DNA from: Alphaproteobacteria bacterium | GTDB taxonomy: Bacteria > Pseudomonadota > Alphaproteobacteria > Rhodobacterales > Rhodobacteraceae | Direction of reading: 5' to 3' | Length of the DNA stretch: 64,000 nt | Assembly (NCBI GenBank): GCA_030428355.1 | Contig: JAUIBL010000003.1 | Coordinates: forward strand, 62,001-126,000 | Program-made: the position numbers and the translations under genes | Shown here: piece by piece, positions 42,460 through 51,204 of the stretch | Layout: every line of letters starts with the position of its first letter | Position numbering within the stretch: position 1 is the first letter of the stretch | The notes under the pieces: generated by a model | What the model was told of the DNA's origin: nothing | The model's database searches: none | Seen by the model: only the letters and a program-made list of their open reading frames with translations

Positions 42460-42732
42460 TCACCGGTCGCGCAGCGCCGCAATCAGCGCGTCCTTGGTCA
42501 TGTCGGACCGACCCGTGATGTCGAGTTCCTGCGCCCGGCGATAGAGATCGTCCTTCGTCCAGTCCTCGTACCGCGCCGCCTTGCCGCCCTTGCGCGAGGG
42601 CGACTGATCGGCGTTTGCCTGCGCGTTGGCGATGCGGGCGGCGGCTTCCTTGCCGTACCCGTCTTCGCGCAGCGCCTCGTAGGTGTCGTCATTCTTGATC
42701 GACGCGCCGTGATCACCTGACATCGGGCTCAC
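42460..42732 (-). CDS. DUF7218 / Rho-N-like small protein
   Basis: IKNDDTYEALREDGYGKEAAARIANAQAN...YEDWTKDDLYRRAQELDITGRSDMTKDALIAALR. Confidence 0.82.
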   Translation of the reverse strand: MSPMSGDHGASIKNDDTYEALREDGYGKEAAARIANAQANADQSPSRKGGKAARYEDWTKDDLYRRAQELDITGRSDMTKDALIAALRDR

Positions 42733-42917
42733 CCGTCCGACGTTGCGGTTGCGGCGGGGGTGGTTGTCTCTTCACCCGGTTCGTTGCCTTGGGCGGCGAG
42801 GTTCGCAAGATAAGCGAGGAACAGGACAGCCGCAAAACCGCCGGCTGCGATGATTCCCCAGATCGCGGGGCGGTGGCGTTTGGCCTGTTTTTCGACATTC
42901 GTGGATGGAGCGGACAT
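42729..42917 (-). CDS. Small single-TM hypothetical protein (62 aa)
   Basis: RPAIWGIIAAGGFAAVLFLAYLANLAAQG; RBS AGGAGGAAC upstream; 4-bp overlap with downstream gene. Confidence 0.75.
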   Translation of the reverse strand: MSAPSTNVEKQAKRHRPAIWGIIAAGGFAAVLFLAYLANLAAQGNEPGEETTTPAATATSDG

Positions 42918-42953
42918 GGTGTTCCTCCTGTGTGATGGGTCTGTCAGGGACTC

Positions 42954-42978
42954 AACGCGAAAGAGGGCTGGCGGTTCC
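42954..42978 (-). promoter_or_regulatory. Predicted EcfG-type promoter (GGAAC-N16-CGTT) upstream of 42917 operon
   Basis: Minus strand GGAACCGCCAGCCCTCTTTCGCGTT, 37 nt upstream of start codon. Confidence 0.72.
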
Positions 42979-43024: not shown

Positions 43025-43738
43025 TCAGGCAAGGTCGTGGCACATGGCGCGGGTCTGGTTGCGGTCGCTGCGATAGGCGCGGGCCGCGCTGACAAGGGCG
43101 CGGAATATGGCGCGTTGTCGGTGCGCATAGAACAGATGTTCCGGGTGCCATTGCACCCCAAGGGCAAACGGGTCGCGGACCCGTTCGATGGCCTGCACCA
43201 TCCCGCCGGTGTCGCGGGCCGAGACGCGCAGGCCCGCCCCAAGACGATCTACCGCCTGACTGTGCAACGCATTGACCTTCATCGGTTTTTCGCCGCTGAT
43301 CAGGGACAGGTGGGTGTCTGCCTCGACGCAGATTTCGCGTTTCGGCAGGATCGTGGTGATCTTGCGGTTGGCCCCATAGGTTGTCCAGGCGTCCTGATCC
43401 AGTGTGCCGCCAAGGGCGACATTCAACATCTGGGAGCCGCGACAGATGCCCAGCACCGGAATGTTGCGCTCCAATGCCGCTTCGGCAAGACCGCGTTCCA
43501 GATCATCGCGCTCCGGGTCCAGCCTGGCCGAGATGCCCAGCCTGCCGCCGTAAAGGTCGGGTCCGATGTCGTCGCCGCCGCCGATGATCAGCCCGTCCAC
43601 GCGCTCGAAATCGGTGCTCCGCCCGACGCCCCAGCGCACCCCGCGGCCACCGGTGATCCAGAGGTTCAGGTTGATGAGCGGATAGACCCGCCAGCCCGTG
43701 CGGGCCGAGGTGGTCACGGCAATCAGCGGTCGGCTCAT
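43025..43738 (-). CDS. Class I glutamine amidotransferase / gamma-glutamyl-GABA hydrolase-like (peptidase C26)
   Basis: IIGGGDDIGPDLYGG; VLGICRGSQMLNVALGG (nucleophile Cys); VNALHSQAVDRLG; VQWHPEHL. Confidence 0.9.
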   Translation of the reverse strand: MSRPLIAVTTSARTGWRVYPLINLNLWITGGRGVRWGVGRSTDFERVDGLIIGGGDDIGPDLYGGRLGISARLDPERDDLERGLAEAALERNIPVLGICRGSQMLNVALGGTLDQDAWTTYGANRKITTILPKREICVEADTHLSLISGEKPMKVNALHSQAVDRLGAGLRVSARDTGGMVQAIERVRDPFALGVQWHPEHLFYAHRQRAIFRALVSAARAYRSDRNQTRAMCHDLA

Positions 43739-44706
43739 GGGGCGGCCTTGGCGTCGTGATCCTGCAGCAGCGTGTCGATGGTTTTGACCCAGACCGATCT
43801 GCGTTCGAACCATGCCGCGTCATGGGTACACCACGCGTCGCGCAGCGCCGCCAGAAGCGCCGGGTTCGCGGCGACACGTTCGACCTGACGCCAAAGCTGC
43901 CAGGGTTGCCGCAGCGACCAGTCGGCCTCGTCGATGCGGCTGTCGGGCAGGCGGAAATGAAAGGTCGGGCGGGCGGCGGTCTTGTCATCGATGTCGAAGC
44001 ATTCGGCGAACAGCTCTGGTTCGGCATGTTTGAAGAGCGGCAGCAGATCGAGGCTGAGATTGCGGCTGTCGATATGGCGTGCCGCCATGCGCATCAGATC
44101 GGCAAGGCTGTCATAGTCATTCTGCGCAAGATCCGAGATCAGAGCCTTGGGCCATGCGCCGATGAACGGCATCATCCGCCGGGTCGTGTCGACCTGTTCG
44201 CGGTCGCGGAGCCATGGCTCAAGCAGCGCATAGGCGGTGATGGTGTCCAGCGTGAAGCGGTGATCGGGGGCTACGACTTCGGGGTTCACGTGCACGCCAA
44301 AGCCCAGCAGCACGCCGCTGCGCGATCCCATCGCCCCGATGCCGCGCAAGCCGGCGCAAATCGTGTCGAATTCTTCCAGTTGCGCACGGCTGAGCGGGGG
44401 TGTCACGACTTCGACCGGGATCAGGCCGCGCATGGCGTCCAGACCTTCCTGCAGAAAAGGCAGGTCGTCCCGTTTGCGCAACGAGATGTCCAGCTCGACC
44501 TCGATGTCGCCGAACCGTGTGTCGGACACGATGACGCTGTGATCGCCCCCTTCGGTGACGGTGCCACCGAATGTGCGGGCAATCAAAGCGCCGGTTTCCA
44601 GCTCGGTCGGTCCGGCGAATTCGATCTCGATACCGCAGAGGCGATCCTTGCCGTCTGCGGTCTGTTCCATCGGCAAGGGGGGAAAGGCGGTGGTGGTCTG
44701 GGTCAT
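43735..44706 (-). CDS. Putative amidoligase enzyme (GS-like amidoligase family)
   Basis: LCGIEIEFAGPTELETGALIARTFGGTVTEGGDHSVIVSDTRFGDIEVELD; GVLLGFGVHVNPEV; ATGA-coupled to amidotransferase. Confidence 0.82.
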   Translation of the reverse strand: MTQTTTAFPPLPMEQTADGKDRLCGIEIEFAGPTELETGALIARTFGGTVTEGGDHSVIVSDTRFGDIEVELDISLRKRDDLPFLQEGLDAMRGLIPVEVVTPPLSRAQLEEFDTICAGLRGIGAMGSRSGVLLGFGVHVNPEVVAPDHRFTLDTITAYALLEPWLRDREQVDTTRRMMPFIGAWPKALISDLAQNDYDSLADLMRMAARHIDSRNLSLDLLPLFKHAEPELFAECFDIDDKTAARPTFHFRLPDSRIDEADWSLRQPWQLWRQVERVAANPALLAALRDAWCTHDAAWFERRSVWVKTIDTLLQDHDAKAAP

Positions 44707-45320
44707 TTCAGGGCTGTGTCCGGCTGTGTGGAGGGACGGGGGCACGTTCGGCCGCGTTCCGTCTGCACAAGGCGTTCGGCCTCGCGCAGCATTCGGTCGC
44801 GTGTGGCTGCCAGATGCGAGACGCTGTCTTTGCGTGACGGGATAAGGCCGCCGATCACCGCGCCGATGACGGCGACAAGAGCGCCGGTCAGAACCGGTCT
44901 GCCCGATTGCGCCCGGGCGGCGCGCCGGGTGTGCCGATCAAGCTGCTCCTGCGCGTCGATGGCCTTGAGCCGTGCGGCGATGATGCGGGTCCGGGCGTCG
45001 GGGGGCAGGTCGTCAAGCCCTGCCTCCAATGATGTGCGCAGCGTTGACGCTGACAGGGTCACCGGGTCGCGTGTCGCGTCGGGCTGGTTTCGCGTGGCGT
45101 TGCCCGAAGACAGCGCCATGAGCGCCGCGCCGATCCCAAGTAGCGCAAGCCCCGAAGGACTATGGCGGAACACAGTCTGGACCACGGCCTGACCAAGGTC
45201 GGTTCCGTGACGGCTGGCCGGTGCGGTGGCGGATGCAGTTGGGGTCAGGGCGGCCAGCCGCGCAGCCAGGTGCGCCCGGCGGGCATCGGCAAGCTGTTCA
45301 AGCTGATCGGTGGTCGGCAC
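44703..45320 (-). CDS. Hypothetical membrane-associated protein
   Basis: Two hydrophobic segments (SGLALLGIGAALMALSSG; TGALVAVIGAVIGGLIP); overlaps neighbours on both sides. Confidence 0.7.
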   Translation of the reverse strand: MPTTDQLEQLADARRAHLAARLAALTPTASATAPASRHGTDLGQAVVQTVFRHSPSGLALLGIGAALMALSSGNATRNQPDATRDPVTLSASTLRTSLEAGLDDLPPDARTRIIAARLKAIDAQEQLDRHTRRAARAQSGRPVLTGALVAVIGAVIGGLIPSRKDSVSHLAATRDRMLREAERLVQTERGRTCPRPSTQPDTALK

Positions 45321-45705
45321 GGCCCATCTCCTTGAGGGTGTCGATGTCGGATCTCAGGCGTCCGAGGGTGCGGTGCGGCGTCAGCGCGGTGGGGGACAGG
45401 CGCGCCCGGGCTGTGCCGATGAAGAGCGCGGCAATGACCAGACAGGCGACGGCCACGATCAGCGCTGCCCAATGCGGGGCGATGCCGGTCGCCGCGATCC
45501 CAAGACCCGCCGCCAGCGCCAGAGCGCCCAGACCGACCAGCGCCATCAGTGCACCAAGGCCGAGACAGAGCAGACCCGTGCCCGCGCGCGCGACATTGTC
45601 CGACAGTTCCCGCCGGGCAAGCTGCAATTCGGCCTGCAGAACGGCCTGCGCGTCTGTCACGATACCTTTGAGCAGGCCGCGCAAATCGGGTGACGGCCCG
45701 TTCAC
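45298..45705 (-). CDS. Phage-holin-family (holin-X-like) cellular membrane protein
   Basis: DLRGLLKGIVTDAQAVLQAELQLARRELSDNVARAGTGLLCLGLGALMALVGLGALALAAG; probable GTG start. Confidence 0.78.
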   Translation of the reverse strand: MNGPSPDLRGLLKGIVTDAQAVLQAELQLARRELSDNVARAGTGLLCLGLGALMALVGLGALALAAGLGIAATGIAPHWAALIVAVACLVIAALFIGTARARLSPTALTPHRTLGRLRSDIDTLKEMGRADHRSA

Positions 45706-46001
45706 GCCGCATCCTCCGGGTTTGACAGGTGCCCCGACCACGGATCGGCAGGGTCACCCGGTGCGGACGATGACACCCCTGCGGATTTGACCATCCGCGC
45801 CGCTGCAAACCCAGCCAGAGCCGCCCCTCCCAGAACCAGCAGCGGGTTGCGACGGGCAAAGCCTGCGGCATCCGCGACGATGTCATCGACAGGTCTGTCG
45901 CGTAGGTGCGCCGTGATTTGATCGAGAAGCGCAGTCTGCAGCAGTGCAAGGTCGGGTGCGTTATCCACAGGCGTGGCGGCAGAGGGGGACGGGGTGGTCA
46001 T
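45702..46001 (-). CDS. Small membrane-anchored protein (YqjD-like C-terminus)
   Basis: FARRNPLLVLGGAALAGFAAARMVKS. Confidence 0.72.
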   Translation of the reverse strand: MTTPSPSAATPVDNAPDLALLQTALLDQITAHLRDRPVDDIVADAAGFARRNPLLVLGGAALAGFAAARMVKSAGVSSSAPGDPADPWSGHLSNPEDAA

Positions 46002-46058
46002 GGGGCCTCCTTGAGATGGTCTGGTGTGTGGCGCTTGGGGATGCGGCGCATCGGCGAC

Positions 46059-46349
46059 TTAGCCGCGTTTCGTCAGCGCCAGTCCCAGAACCATCCCGAC
46101 ACCGACCGCTCCCAACACGGCAAGGGTCGGGTTGCGGCGCACGGCGCTGTCAAAGTCGCTCTGCAGGGTCTGAGCCGTGTCGAGCCCGCGTTCGGCGGTT
46201 TCGACGACCGTGTCGCGCATCCGTGTGGTTGCGTCATGCACCTTGTCCTGTGCCTGTGCGGCGGCATCGGTGATCCGGTCGGCGGCTGCGGTTTTCAGCG
46301 CCTCTGCCTCGTCAAGATAGGTGCGGTGTGTGGTTTGTGTCTGTGCCAT
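46059..46349 (-). CDS. YqjD/ElaB-like (DUF883-type) membrane-anchored protein
   Basis: Amphipathic helix then AVRRNPTLAVLGAVGVGMVLGLALTKRG. Confidence 0.78.
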   Translation of the reverse strand: MAQTQTTHRTYLDEAEALKTAAADRITDAAAQAQDKVHDATTRMRDTVVETAERGLDTAQTLQSDFDSAVRRNPTLAVLGAVGVGMVLGLALTKRG

Positions 46350-46375
46350 GGTTGGTCTCCTTTCCTTTGCACCCC

Positions 46376-46401
46376 AACGTCGCTTTGCCGCGCAAAGTTC
46401 C
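46376..46401 (-). promoter_or_regulatory. Predicted EcfG-type promoter (GGAAC-N17-CGTT) upstream of 46349 operon
   Basis: Minus strand GGAACTTTGCGCGGCAAAGCGACGTT. Confidence 0.72.
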
Positions 46402-46469: not shown

Positions 46470-46631
46470 ATGCTTTACTGGGCTGCAATCTTTCTGGTGA
46501 TCGCGCTGATCGCCGCATTGTTCGGATTTGGCGGTATCGCGTCCGCCTCGGCCGGGATCGCGCAAATCCTGTTTGTGGTGTTCCTCGTGCTCTTCGTGGC
46601 CACGCTGATCGTCCGGGCGGTGCGATCGTGA
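46470..46631 (+). CDS. DUF1328 small membrane protein (53 aa; not in supplied ORF track)
   Basis: [60 protein letters not shown] upstream. Confidence 0.93.
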
Positions 46632-46699: not shown

Positions 46700-47509
46700 T
46701 CAGGCCTTGAGCGTTTCCGTCGAGGAGAAGAACATCGCCTGGCTGACTGCCGAGCGGACCTGCTCTTCCGTATAGGGTTTGGAAATCAGGAAGGCGGGTT
46801 CCGGGCCTTCGCCGGTCAGAAGACGCTCGGGGAAGGCGGTGATGAAGATCACAGGAATTTCGGGTGTGTCCGCGATGATCCTGTTGACCGCGTCAATGCC
46901 GCTCGATCCGTCGGCAAGCTGGATGTCGGACATGATCAGGTGCGGTTTCTCCGTCCTGAACAGGTTGACCGCCGCATCTGCCGTGCGCGCAATGCCCGTC
47001 ACGGCATGGCCCATATCCGAGACGATGGCTTCGAGATCCATCGTGATGATGGCCTCGTCCTCGATGATCATCACGCGACCGGCCAGAGATTTGGCCATTT
47101 CGGTATAGGCGATGTCGACAAGCTTTTCCGCGTCGGCCGGGCTCATATCAAGGACCTTGGCCACATCGGCAAAGGACATGTCCTCGATCGTGTGAAGCAA
47201 CAGCGCCTCGCGCGTGCCCGAGGTCAGGCGGGACAGGTGCTTTTGCGCTTTTGCCGCCACGCCGGTTTCCTCTGCGCTGAACGTGCCGCCCGAGGTCGAC
47301 CAGATCGAGTGAAACACCTTGAACAGCGCGACCTTGTTGGACGCTTCATGGTCGAAGATGGAGGTGTCGCTGAGGATCGCTTCGAGCGTGGCAACGGCGT
47401 ATTTGTCGCCTTCGACCTGCGAACCTGTCAGGGCCCTCGCATAGCGGCGCAGGAACGGCAGGTTCGCGCCGATTTTCGAGGTCAGGTCCTGTGCGTGTTC
47501 GGTCGGCAT
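46700..47509 (-). CDS. phyR: General stress response regulator PhyR (sigma-like domain plus receiver)
   Basis: LPFLRRYARALTGSQVEGDKYAVATLEAIL; REALLLHTIEDMSFADVAKVLDMSPADAEKLVDIA; receiver VMIIEDEAIITMDLE...LIMSDIQLADGSSGIDAV...FLISKPY. Confidence 0.96.
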   Translation of the reverse strand: MPTEHAQDLTSKIGANLPFLRRYARALTGSQVEGDKYAVATLEAILSDTSIFDHEASNKVALFKVFHSIWSTSGGTFSAEETGVAAKAQKHLSRLTSGTREALLLHTIEDMSFADVAKVLDMSPADAEKLVDIAYTEMAKSLAGRVMIIEDEAIITMDLEAIVSDMGHAVTGIARTADAAVNLFRTEKPHLIMSDIQLADGSSGIDAVNRIIADTPEIPVIFITAFPERLLTGEGPEPAFLISKPYTEEQVRSAVSQAMFFSSTETLKA

Positions 47510-47542
47510 AGAGAAAAGCTCCCTCATTTTTTGGATGTTACG

Positions 47543-47567
47543 GGAACCAAACGCCCTAGATAGCGTT
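47543..47567 (+). promoter_or_regulatory. Predicted EcfG promoter for nepR-ecfG
   Basis: GGAAC-CAAACGCCCTAGATAG-CGTT, N16 spacer. Confidence 0.85.
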
Positions 47568-47574
47568 AGGTTCC
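47550..47574 (-). promoter_or_regulatory. Predicted EcfG promoter for phyR, overlapping the nepR-ecfG promoter
   Basis: Minus strand GGAAC-CTAACGCTATCTAGGG-CGTT, N16 spacer. Confidence 0.82.
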
Positions 47575-47616
47575 CGCTGACGCGCGACAAAACGCACAAA
47601 TCATCTGAAGGGCTAC

Positions 47617-47781
47617 ATGAAACAGGATCGGAAATTATCAAGCCTTGAGCAGGAAATCGAAGCCAACCTCAAGCGGGTCTATGACGACGTGGCCAACCAA
47701 GAGGTCCCGGACCGGTTTACCCAGTTGCTCGAGCAGCTTCGCCAAGCTGACAAATCCTCTTCGGAGACATCGCATGACTGA
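47617..47781 (+). CDS. nepR: Anti-sigma factor NepR (54 aa; not in supplied ORF track)
   Basis: MKQDRKLSSLEQEIEANLKRVYDDVANQEVPDRFTQLLEQLRQADKSSSETSHD; overlaps ecfG by 8 bp; divergent from phyR. Confidence 0.94.
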   Translation: MKQDRKLSSLEQEIEANLKRVYDDVANQEVPDRFTQLLEQLRQADKSSSETSHD

Positions 47782-48322
47782 TCCGAAAGAAGAAATCGTT
47801 GAACATCTGAGCGCGATGCGCGCCTTTGCCATGAGCCTGACGCGCAATTCGGCACTGGCGGATGACATGGTGCAGGATGCGCTGGTCAAGGCGTGGACGA
47901 AGATCGACTCGTACCAGCCGGGCACGAACATGCGGGCGTGGCTTTTCACCATCCTGCGCAACACCTATTATTCGCATCACCGCAAGGCCCGGCGCGAAGT
48001 GGCGGATGTCGATGGCGAGATGGCCGCGTCCCTCGCGCAGAAACCCGACCATGACGGCCGGCTGCAGATGCGCGATTTCAACCGGGCCTTCGATCAGTTG
48101 AACGACGAACAGCGCGAGGCGCTGGTGCTGGTCGGTGCGGGGGGCTTTTCCTACGAAGAGGCAGCCGAAACCTGCGGCGTTGCCGTGGGCACCATAAAAA
48201 GCCGCGTCAACCGGGCGCGCAAGCAACTGGTCGCTATCCTTCAGATGAGCGATGACGAGGTCATGGAAGCGACCGACATTGTCACGACAGGGATCGTGAC
48301 CAATCAGCGCAACGTCGCCTGA
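47774..48322 (+). CDS. ecfG: ECF sigma factor, EcfG family
   Basis: FAMSLTRNSALADDMVQDALVKAW; RAWLFTILRNTYYSHHRKARRE; REALVLVGAGGFSYEEAAETCGVAVGTIKSRVNRAR. Confidence 0.95.
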   Translation: MTDPKEEIVEHLSAMRAFAMSLTRNSALADDMVQDALVKAWTKIDSYQPGTNMRAWLFTILRNTYYSHHRKARREVADVDGEMAASLAQKPDHDGRLQMRDFNRAFDQLNDEQREALVLVGAGGFSYEEAAETCGVAVGTIKSRVNRARKQLVAILQMSDDEVMEATDIVTTGIVTNQRNVA

Positions 48323-48357: not shown

Positions 48358-49869
48358 GTGCCCGATGCTGCGTGCGTTTCGCGGCCCGTCTGCGTGCCGG
48401 ATTTCGAAGTGCTGATCACCGCCGAAGAGGCATGGCCCGCGTTCGAGCGGGCCGTGCTGAATGCCCGGCATCACATCCACGGGTCGTTCCGCATCTTCGA
48501 TTTTGGCACAAGGCTGCGCAGTCCGGAGGCACGGGCGGTGGGAACCGACTGGTTCGATCTGCTGGCCCATGTGATCCGGCGCGGCGTGTCGGTGACACTT
48601 GTGGTCAGCGATTTCGACCCGGTGATGGCCACCGACCTGCACGAGCTGTCATGGAGAACCGTTCGGCAAGGGGCAGCCCTGGCCGAGATTGCCGATGCGG
48701 CACAGGGACAGGTGCGCGTGACGGCTGAATTGCACCCCGCGCGGGCCGGAGTCCTGCCGTGGAGCGTGCTGCTGCCTGCCGTGCTCAAACGCAAATGGGA
48801 TCAGTTGGCGGCGCTGTCGAAAGACCGACTGACGCGACAGGCCGTGCTGTTAAACCGGTCTCCGCTGCCCGAGCTGCGCACCGTGACCCATCACCAGAAA
48901 CTTGCGGTGGTCGACGCGGACACGCTCTTCATCGGTGGGCTTGATCTGAATGAACGGCGGTTCGATACGTGCGACCATGACCGCCCGGCGCACCAGACAT
49001 GGTCGGATGTTCATCTGATCCTGCGCAACGGTCCGGAAGTGGCCGAGGCACAGGCGCATCTGGACAGCTTTCGGGGTGTAGCAGCTGGTACTGGCACAGC
49101 GCCAAGGCTGAGCCTGATCCGGCGCACCCTGTCTGCGCCGCGCCGCCTGCAGTTTCCCTATCTGTCGCCGCGCAGCGTGCTGACCGAGATCGAGGACACG
49201 CATCTCGCCTGTTTCCGTGCGGCCCGCCATCTGATCCATATCGAGACCCAGTTCCTGCGCTCGCGTGTCATCGCGTCGGCACTGGCGCGGGCGGCGCAGG
49301 ACAATCCCGATCTGCACCTTCTTGCCATCCTGCCCGCCTTGCCCGAAAGCCTTGCCTTCCATCACGAAGACGGGCTGGACACGCGATTTGGTCTTGGCCT
49401 GCAGAAAGAGGCGGTGTCGCGGGTTCAGGAGGCGTTTGGGGATCGGGCGATCTTTGCCTCTCCGGTCCGGCCTGTCATGGCGGCGCGTGACAGTCTGGCG
49501 GTCCTCGCAGGGTCGCCCATGGTATATGTTCACAACAAGGTCCTTGTGCAGGACGATGACTTCGCTCTGGTCGGTTCGGGCAATCTGAACGGCCGGTCGA
49601 TGCGGTGGGACACCGAGGCGGCTGTTGCGATCACCGATCCTGCGCGGCTGCGCACCCTGCGCACGCGGCTTTTGTCCCATTGGTGGTTCGATGCTCTGCC
49701 GGAACAGGCTCTGGCCCCCGCGACGCTGGTTCCGTGGTGGTCTAAGAGGATTGAGGCAAACGGCGTCTGCCTGCCCGAGAACAGAACCGGCTTTCTGGTG
49801 CCCTACGATCCCGACAACCGCGGGGATCTGGCGCAGGCGTTGCCGGGGATCACCGAAAACATCGTATGA
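48358..49869 (+). CDS. Phospholipase D-like protein (two HKD motifs)
   Basis: HHQKLAVVDADTLFIGGLDL and VHNKVLVQDDDFALVGSGNLNGRSMRWDTEAAV. Confidence 0.9.
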   Translation: MPDAACVSRPVCVPDFEVLITAEEAWPAFERAVLNARHHIHGSFRIFDFGTRLRSPEARAVGTDWFDLLAHVIRRGVSVTLVVSDFDPVMATDLHELSWRTVRQGAALAEIADAAQGQVRVTAELHPARAGVLPWSVLLPAVLKRKWDQLAALSKDRLTRQAVLLNRSPLPELRTVTHHQKLAVVDADTLFIGGLDLNERRFDTCDHDRPAHQTWSDVHLILRNGPEVAEAQAHLDSFRGVAAGTGTAPRLSLIRRTLSAPRRLQFPYLSPRSVLTEIEDTHLACFRAARHLIHIETQFLRSRVIASALARAAQDNPDLHLLAILPALPESLAFHHEDGLDTRFGLGLQKEAVSRVQEAFGDRAIFASPVRPVMAARDSLAVLAGSPMVYVHNKVLVQDDDFALVGSGNLNGRSMRWDTEAAVAITDPARLRTLRTRLLSHWWFDALPEQALAPATLVPWWSKRIEANGVCLPENRTGFLVPYDPDNRGDLAQALPGITENIV

Positions 49870-49925
49870 CCCGGCTTGACAGCGACAGGCGCGGTTCCTT
49901 TGCTGGCCCGGAAGGAGAAAGTTCC

Positions 49926-50894
49926 ATGAGCCGTGGACGTTTGGCCCACCGACCGACGCATATCCCGATCCGGGGGCTGTTCGATGTTCTGCTTCGGATG
50001 TGGCGCAAACAGGCGGATCTGAACCTTGGCCTGATCGCCGCCGGGATCGCGTTTTACGGTCTCTTGTCCCTCTTTCCGGGCATCACGGCAGCGGTGGCTT
50101 TTGGCGGCACGTTTCTGAACCCGGACATTCTGGTGGACAACAGCGAAGACATTGCCGCGATGCTGCCCGAGGCGGCGCAGGCCATTGTCCTCGGACAGTT
50201 GGAGGATGTGGCAAATGCCGACAGCGCGACGCTGAGTTTTGCAGCGCTGTTCAGTTTGGCCATCGCGCTTTATTCAGCGTCCAAGGCGGTCGCGAATTTC
50301 ATCGCGGGGCTCAATGTCATCTACGAAGAACGTGAGACCCGGAATTTCTTTCTGGTCAAGGCGCTGACCATCCTGCTCACGGTGTTTCTGATCATCGGGC
50401 TGCTGGTTGCGATCATCGTCGTCGCCGCCATTCCGGTGATTGCGGCGCTGTTCGGAGATTACGGGATCGTCGACGATCTGGTGATGTTCCTGCGCTGGCC
50501 GGTGCTGTTCCTGATGGGCGCGTTCGGCATCGCGGTGCTCTACCGGCTGGGTCCGAACCGTCGGTCCGCCAAATGGCGCTGGCTGACCCCTGGTGCGTTT
50601 GTGGCCTGCGCCCTGTGGGTTGCGGGCAGCTTCGGGTTCAGCCTGTATGTCCAGTCCTTCGGGTCCTACAACGAGACCTTCGGCGCGCTGGGTGGGGTGA
50701 TCATCCTGCTGACGTGGCTGTGGCTGTCGGCCTTCATCGTGCTGTTGGGCGGCTTGCTCGATGCGGAGTTGGAAGCGCAGACGCGGCGTGACAGCACGGT
50801 CGGACAAGACCGCCCGATGGGAGAGCGCGGCGCGGTGACGGCCGACACGTTGGGGGAAACCGTTGGCGAAACCACAACGGAACCCTCGGGCTGA
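49926..50894 (+). CDS. YihY/UPF0761 family inner membrane protein
   Basis: LNLGLIAAGIAFYGLLSLFPGITAAVAFGG; RLGPNRRSAKWRWLTPGAFVACALWVAGSFGFSLYVQSFGSYNETFGALGGVIILLTWLWLSAFIVLLGG. Confidence 0.94.
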   Translation: MSRGRLAHRPTHIPIRGLFDVLLRMWRKQADLNLGLIAAGIAFYGLLSLFPGITAAVAFGGTFLNPDILVDNSEDIAAMLPEAAQAIVLGQLEDVANADSATLSFAALFSLAIALYSASKAVANFIAGLNVIYEERETRNFFLVKALTILLTVFLIIGLLVAIIVVAAIPVIAALFGDYGIVDDLVMFLRWPVLFLMGAFGIAVLYRLGPNRRSAKWRWLTPGAFVACALWVAGSFGFSLYVQSFGSYNETFGALGGVIILLTWLWLSAFIVLLGGLLDAELEAQTRRDSTVGQDRPMGERGAVTADTLGETVGETTTEPSG

Positions 50895-50903
50895 TCACAC
50901 GTT
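50879..50903 (+). promoter_or_regulatory. Predicted EcfG promoter (GGAAC-N16-CGTT) upstream of CsbD-like gene
   Basis: GGAACCCTCGGGCTGATCACACGTT, overlapping 3' end of yihY-like gene. Confidence 0.78.
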
Positions 50904-51006
50904 GATCCCTCAGACAGACGGACAAAGGCCCGGACCCGTCCGGGCCGCCCCTGTTGCGCACCGACGCAACCGGTGCGCTCCCAAAAAGAGAAGAAAGGAC
51001 ACGGAC

Positions 51007-51204
51007 ATGGACCGCGATGTGATCGAAGGCAAATGGACCGAAATCAAAGGTCAACTGCGCGAGGCCTATGGTGATCTGACCGACGACGATGTCGAAGAGG
51101 CCAAGGGCGACCGCGAACAGATGGAAGGTGTGCTCCAGCAGAAGCTGGGCAAGTCGAAAGACGAGGTGCGCCAGACCGTTGACCGGATTCTGAACAACAT
51201 CTGA
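51007..51204 (+). CDS. CsbD family stress protein
   Basis: MDRDVIEGKWTEIKGQLREAYGDLTDDDVEEAKGDREQMEGVLQQKLGKSKDEVRQTVDRIL. Confidence 0.95.
   Translation: MDRDVIEGKWTEIKGQLREAYGDLTDDDVEEAKGDREQMEGVLQQKLGKSKDEVRQTVDRILNNI

Follow-up and report, generated by a model that had tools for sequence, protein, structure and literature searches.

In the Puu pathway, a glutamine synthetase (GS)-like ligase makes a gamma-glutamyl amide and a Peptidase C26 enzyme hydrolyses it. Amidoligases of another family, PF12224, are spread through Pseudomonadota and have no known substrate to our knowledge; in proteobacteria, amidoligases are reported by Iyer et al. (2009), and in Pfam, to lie beside glutamine-amidotransferase-like thiol peptidases. 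Within the literature searched, PF12224 is named only in two papers, both on phage genomes. The window analysed here, a 64,000-nucleotide stretch of the Rhodobacteraceae assembly GCA_030428355.1 (contig JAUIBL010000003.1, positions 62,001 to 126,000) from a marine bacterium of the genus Marivita, contains a PF12224 amidoligase and a C26 hydrolase at the end of a run of six genes. The run adjoins PhyR, with NepR and EcfG just past it, which together form the core of the general stress response (GSR); the initial annotation of the locus does not mention these neighbours. The pair is a real, conserved and stress-linked enzyme module. With moderate confidence, we favour the view that it is a make-and-break gamma-glutamyl-amide module under the control of EcfG, joined in Marivita and its relatives to a membrane-stress operon. 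The locus had been put forward in an initial annotation as a candidate undescribed system. This appears to hold for its attachment to EcfG and to the membrane operon, of which no description was found in the literature searched, whereas the pairing of an amidoligase with a glutamine-amidotransferase-like thiol peptidase was already known in outline.

An open reading frame (ORF) check of the window bore out the proposed layout: six minus-strand ORFs run head to tail from 46349 down to 43025, the four overlaps (45705/45702, 45320/45298, 44706/44703 and 43738/43735) are exact, and the run begins at the EcfG-type motif. The holin-X and amidoligase assignments, also made earlier, agree with Pfam. 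The features of the run are as follows.

46376..46401, minus strand: EcfG-type motif GGAAC-N17-CGTT 5' of yqjD1; exact match, position kept in close congeners
46059..46349, minus strand: yqjD1, small YqjD-like protein with a C-terminal membrane anchor; no DUF883 match
45702..46001, minus strand: yqjD2, YqjD-like anchor protein; ~50 aa of the N-terminus missing versus all aligned homologues
45298..45705, minus strand: holin-X superfamily III membrane protein, YqjE/PA3041-like (PF07332, 1e-22)
44703..45320, minus strand: p205, DUF3618-type membrane protein with truncated C-terminus; a longer congeneric homologue matches DUF3618
43735..44706, minus strand: Amidoligase_2, putative GS-like ligase (PF12224, 1e-40)
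43025..43738, minus strand: Peptidase C26/class I glutamine amidotransferase (GATase), PuuD/SpuA-like predicted gamma-glutamyl hydrolase (PF07722, 2e-44; triad C99-H198-E200)

Distribution and genomic settings of the enzyme pair

The amidoligase is single-copy in this genome and present in 16/16 sampled congeners, with Marivita species as the nearest relatives; when the family was sampled at one genome per genus, 51 of 298 genera had it. The hydrolase lies directly 3' of it on the same strand in 78/80 named Rhodobacterales loci, most commonly with a 4-base ATGA overlap at the junction, and one of the two exceptions (L112) stops at a contig edge. Adjacency extends to 22/24 loci in a class-wide sample and 19/21 in a phylum-wide one. 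Because this adjacency is widespread and no third gene is constant outside Rhodobacterales, the pair is, on genomic grounds, a functional unit. A Mantel test of ligase versus hydrolase distances gave a correlation of 0.57, not above the 0.66 for ligase versus PhyR, and hence no special co-evolution signal. Four loci (L147, L148, L173 and L174) carry an amidoligase without an adjacent hydrolase and might show a different partner. Two database titles disagree with their content. The entry titled Enemella evansiae TN21-6 (L067), labelled as an actinobacterium, contains a stress locus of Rhodobacterales, and its amidoligase is identical to the one in G018, which belongs to the same family as the window; this assembly is mislabelled or contaminated. 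In the entry titled Oceanospirillaceae bacterium HF-Din08 (L085), the amidoligase falls inside the Pseudooceanicola clade, probably on a misbinned contig.

The tree and the gene neighbourhoods together define two main settings of the pair in Rhodobacterales. In the first clade (25 rows, support 98/91), 20 of the 25 carry the membrane operon, located near PhyR/NepR/EcfG and often accompanied by an HWE/HisKA_2 kinase. Marivita, Sagittula, Pseudoponticoccus, Tropicibacter and some Roseovarius share the conserved gene order yqjD2, holin-X, p205, AI-2E permease, amidoligase, hydrolase. In the second clade (27 rows, 100/100), the pair is mostly found 3' of rlmN, often with dapD downstream, and no GSR core genes are nearby. 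In loci L079, L098, L101, L114, L119 and their relatives in this clade, it is flanked by dapD on one side and on the other by rlmN, accompanied by ialB and an asparaginase-like gene, and second-clade loci often have EcfG-like motif variants (GGTT, CATT) 5' of the amidoligase. The conserved coupling to YqjD and holin-X genes that had been anticipated was thus recovered only in part by the neighbourhood comparison: the YqjD/holin-X/DUF3618 linkage is limited to one Roseobacter-group clade, and elsewhere the enzyme pair stands alone.

In Pseudomonas, a YqjD protein, a YqjE-like holin and a third small gene form an envelope-stress operon under the extracytoplasmic function (ECF) sigma factor AlgU (PMC11302039), and the membrane genes of Rhodobacterales fit this kind of operon, here with an EcfG motif. 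The two proteins earlier described as YqjD-like anchors keep that label on the basis of size, a C-terminal RRNP-glycine-rich anchor and context; membership in DUF883 was rejected, as neither matched it, singly or as homologue families. The 205-aa window copy of p205 matched no family above cut-off. Compared with Marivita cryptomonadis (L044), two segments are missing from this genome: ~1.1 kb between p205 and the amidoligase, comprising the whole AI-2E permease and the p205 C-terminus, and ~1.9 kb between yqjD1 and yqjD2, comprising a response regulator (RR)-like ORF, a Crp/Fnr regulator, DUF2383 and the yqjD2 N-terminus. The amidoligase and hydrolase are intact, with mostly 75-90% identity to close congeners, versus roughly 40-60% for yqjD, holin-X and p205.

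EcfG-type motifs and the general stress response

The motif at the head of the run, GGAACTTTGCGCGGCAAAGCGACGTT (46401-46376), lies 26 bp 5' of yqjD1. Genome-wide, GGAAC-N16/17-CGTT occurs 55 times, below the reversed control (93); since the pattern is not enriched, a single exact match is weak evidence, and genome-wide counts were not used as evidence. The window itself has 5 matches against 1.08 expected, all five around the operon locus, and 1 of 100 shuffles reaches 5; the same site is present 5' of yqjD1 in the 11 close congeners that have the region (L044-L057). Given this local excess and the shared site, the motif 5' of yqjD1 is, as judged from sequence, more than a chance occurrence. 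Because the deletion between yqjD1 and yqjD2 also took the EcfG motif that congeners carry 5' of DUF2383, we infer that all genes of the run may now depend on the motif at 46401. Sigma-70-like promoters and terminators in the region showed no excess over shuffles.

Motifs also precede the amidoligase itself. The exact form was found in 15 of 69 non-Marivita loci (shuffles 0.1; wrong-spacer controls 0), at 25-53 bp ahead of the start in 14 of the 15. A looser form with the first base of the -10 element free (NGTT), reasonable because EcfG sites of Sphingomonas melonis read GGAAC-N17-20-GTT (PMC6599016), was found in 27/69 loci (shuffles 0.25); it also gave 7 antisense matches, above shuffles, so some matches may be incidental. 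Several motif-bearing loci, such as L073, L102 and L103, have no GSR core gene within 10 kb. NepR is present in 44 of the 51 genera with an amidoligase versus 96 of the 247 (39%) without (Fisher 2e-10, a p-value that overstates independence because the genera are related), and the two genes are at most 10 kb apart in 19 genera. The EcfG control suggested by the initial annotation therefore stands as far as sequence can tell, on the adjoining phyR-nepR-ecfG genes, the conserved motif position and the EcfG-like sites before the amidoligase in unlinked loci; in Rhodobacterales, EcfG would transcribe the pair in the cell.

Common regulation may also be all that the enzymes share with the membrane genes. 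Two biochemically unrelated EcfG-controlled units could simply be neighbours at the GSR locus, an explanation that is compatible with each of the enzyme readings considered below and that we regard as evenly balanced. It accords with L060 and L065, where the pair has its own EcfG motif directly 5' of the ligase despite preceding membrane genes, with the occurrence of the pair alone in most lineages, and with the lower conservation of the membrane proteins and their truncation in this genome. However, the maintenance of one gene order, from yqjD2 to the hydrolase, over five named genera argues the other way and suggests at least useful co-expression. For the envelope modification that the initial annotation proposed, the analysis gave no specific support.

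Predicted chemistry of the pair

The initial annotation had described the partner of the amidoligase as a glutamine amidotransferase. It matches Peptidase C26 with 152.6 bits (cut-off 20.5) and has the class-I GATase fold; its triad (C99, H198 and E200) is invariant, the catalytic H221 of SpuA aligns with H198, and the motif VN.[LI]H.Q is common to both proteins. The best structural matches of its model (pLDDT 86) are PuuD, Lin1909 and SpuA (E 1e-19 to 1e-14), with ammonia-donating GATases matching less well (1e-12 and weaker), and its sequence is likewise nearest PuuD/SpuA. It scores 96.7 bits against the PuuD model NF008471 (cut-off 266) and so is not assigned as PuuD itself. From sequence and model, the protein resembles gamma-glutamyl hydrolases far more than it does ammonia donors fed by glutamine.

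The ligase matches PF12224 with 140 bits (cut-off 22) and does not match PF00120; 10/10 diverse members also match PF12224. The top 15 Foldseek matches of its model (pLDDT 90) in PDB all belong to the GS/glutamylcysteine synthetase (GCS) superfamily (YbdK, GS, plant GCL, Dop and GmaS). Residues E27/E29, E99, H139/N141, R215 and R246/H250/R252 are invariant. They lie in the motifs ExE, E, GFGxHxN, RN and RPxxHxRxPD, which by eye, and with no statistic attached, succeed one another as do ExE, E, GSGMHVN, ARN and RVEARFPD in the GlnA of this organism; the ligase has His where the RxExR of GS has Glu. About eight PF00120 glutamine-synthetase-type matches were counted in this genome (contigs C63 and C14 of G000), some of them side by side.

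The two enzymes probably make and break a glutamate-type amide bond, a model based on the Puu pathway, where a GS-like ligase and a C26 hydrolase are arranged as predicted here. At the expense of ATP, the amidoligase would couple an amine to a carboxylate, which is most likely a gamma-carboxyl belonging to glutamate or to a gamma-glutamyl compound. The C26 cysteine hydrolase, whose translation is coupled to that of the ligase, would split a gamma-glutamyl amide of this kind, so that the two form a make-and-break cycle in the manner of PuuA/PuuD; by this analogy, both the gamma-glutamyl chemistry and the direction of each reaction would be as in that pathway. EcfG would switch the module on during the GSR in Rhodobacterales, and in Marivita and its relatives the module would be joined to the YqjD/YqjE-type membrane-stress operon beside phyR-nepR-ecfG. 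Several points weigh against this model. For the ligase, even the best Foldseek match is weak (E 0.017, TM ~0.33), and aligning its profile with those of GS and GCS2, whether globally or locally, yielded no significant match, so glutamate as its substrate is an analogy. In addition, no constant third partner (amine, exporter or pathway enzyme) was found near the pair outside Rhodobacterales, and the relatedness of the genera tempers the co-occurrence with NepR. A sequence search of the ligase in PDB found no relative.

The C26 protein might instead act as a genuine glutaminase subunit and supply the amidoligase with ammonia, the two together converting a carboxylate metabolite to its amide. 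Such a role would suit its class-I GATase fold and intact C-H-E triad, as well as its association with an ATP-dependent ligase, which looks obligate and is translationally coupled. We nevertheless consider it unlikely and favour the make-and-break cycle, because the partner is far closer to PuuD/SpuA, by orders of magnitude in E-value, than to ammonia-donating GATases; moreover, GS-fold ligases can take free ammonia or amines directly. It is more doubtful still that general stress leads Rhodobacterales to form an undescribed conjugate of the gamma-glutamyl type, or a reversibly glutamylated target, whose level the dedicated ligase and hydrolase control and which works together with the YqjD/holin-X/DUF3618 proteins and the AI-2E-family permease, at the membrane or across it. 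Reversible tagging is very unlikely. In such a scheme, as in RimK/RimB or PafA/Dop, a protein (perhaps membrane or ribosomal) would receive glutamate or a peptide from the ligase and lose it again through the C26 enzyme. Dop is among the weak fold matches, and RimK-RimB offers a ligase-peptidase precedent (PMC12239564). Against it, neither a tag gene nor a target accompanies the pair in a conserved way, the C26 enzymes whose function is known have small gamma-glutamyl compounds as substrates, and the link to YqjD-like proteins is confined to one clade.

Many targets of this stress response are unknown genes, and a make-and-break pair attached to it would be an enzymatic addition to its outputs. 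Given the conserved EcfG attachment, the product and the phenotype could be sought under general stress and in an ecfG mutant, and the range of candidate reactions is narrowed by the PuuD/SpuA-like partner.

Neighbouring features and comparison with known systems

The run is flanked by the following features, assigned by motif scan, Pfam and neighbourhood comparison or annotation.

42460..42723, minus strand: DUF7218 + Rho_N-like protein; conserved neighbour
42729..42917, minus strand: 62-aa membrane protein; neighbour kept in Marivita
42954..42978, minus strand: second EcfG-type motif, 5' of the downstream small membrane gene (motif scan)
46470..46631, plus strand: DUF1328 small membrane protein, divergent neighbour (Pfam, neighbourhood comparison)
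46700..47596, minus strand: PhyR anti-anti-sigma response regulator (neighbourhood annotation)
47543..47574, no single strand: overlapping divergent EcfG-type motifs, phyR / nepR-ecfG gap (motif scan)
47617..47781, plus strand: NepR anti-sigma factor (neighbourhood annotation)
47765..48322, plus strand: EcfG general-stress sigma factor (neighbourhood annotation)

The two small genes 3' of the hydrolase (42460-42978) lie behind a separate EcfG motif that congeners also carry. Between phyR and nepR-ecfG, the two exact motifs overlap on opposite strands and are kept in congeners, implying, on sequence, divergent autoregulation from one short stretch. Genes for a PLD-family enzyme, a YihY-like membrane protein and a CsbD-like stress protein follow ecfG (48358-51204), with an exact EcfG motif at 50879, ~100 bp 5' of the CsbD-like gene.

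The phage amidoligase cluster of the LUZ24-like type (PMC3890496) resembles this locus in having PF12224 with a glutamine amidotransferase nearby, but the phage partner is a class II (Ntn) GATase and is joined by a COOH-NH2 ligase and an ATP-grasp protein. RimK-RimB likewise combines an ATP-dependent amide ligase with a peptidase, although the folds are unrelated (ATP-grasp and retropepsin) and its protein target is known. Pseudomonas PA3040-3042 shares the YqjD-like, holin-X and third small gene arrangement; the run described here differs in its EcfG motif, in a DUF3618-type third gene, and in the AI-2E-family permease (lost in this genome) and enzyme pair that follow. PuuA/PuuD, the former catalysing the ligase step of the Puu pathway (PMC5403932), and PauA/SpuA combine a GS-like ligase with a C26 gamma-glutamyl hydrolase, the arrangement predicted for this pair, whereas the ligase here belongs to PF12224 rather than PF00120 and the locus gives no evidence of polyamine transport or regulation. 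No clear PuuB/PuuC oxidase or dehydrogenase was found among the conserved neighbours, whose unlabelled genes are not all annotated. Puu polyamine catabolism was rejected as the identity of the system, the ligase being of another family and a clear Puu partner being absent from those neighbours. The proteobacterial neighbourhoods of Amidoligase_2 with thiol peptidases contain the same two families as this locus; what sets the pair apart here is its tie to the EcfG general stress response, joined in one clade by a membrane operon.

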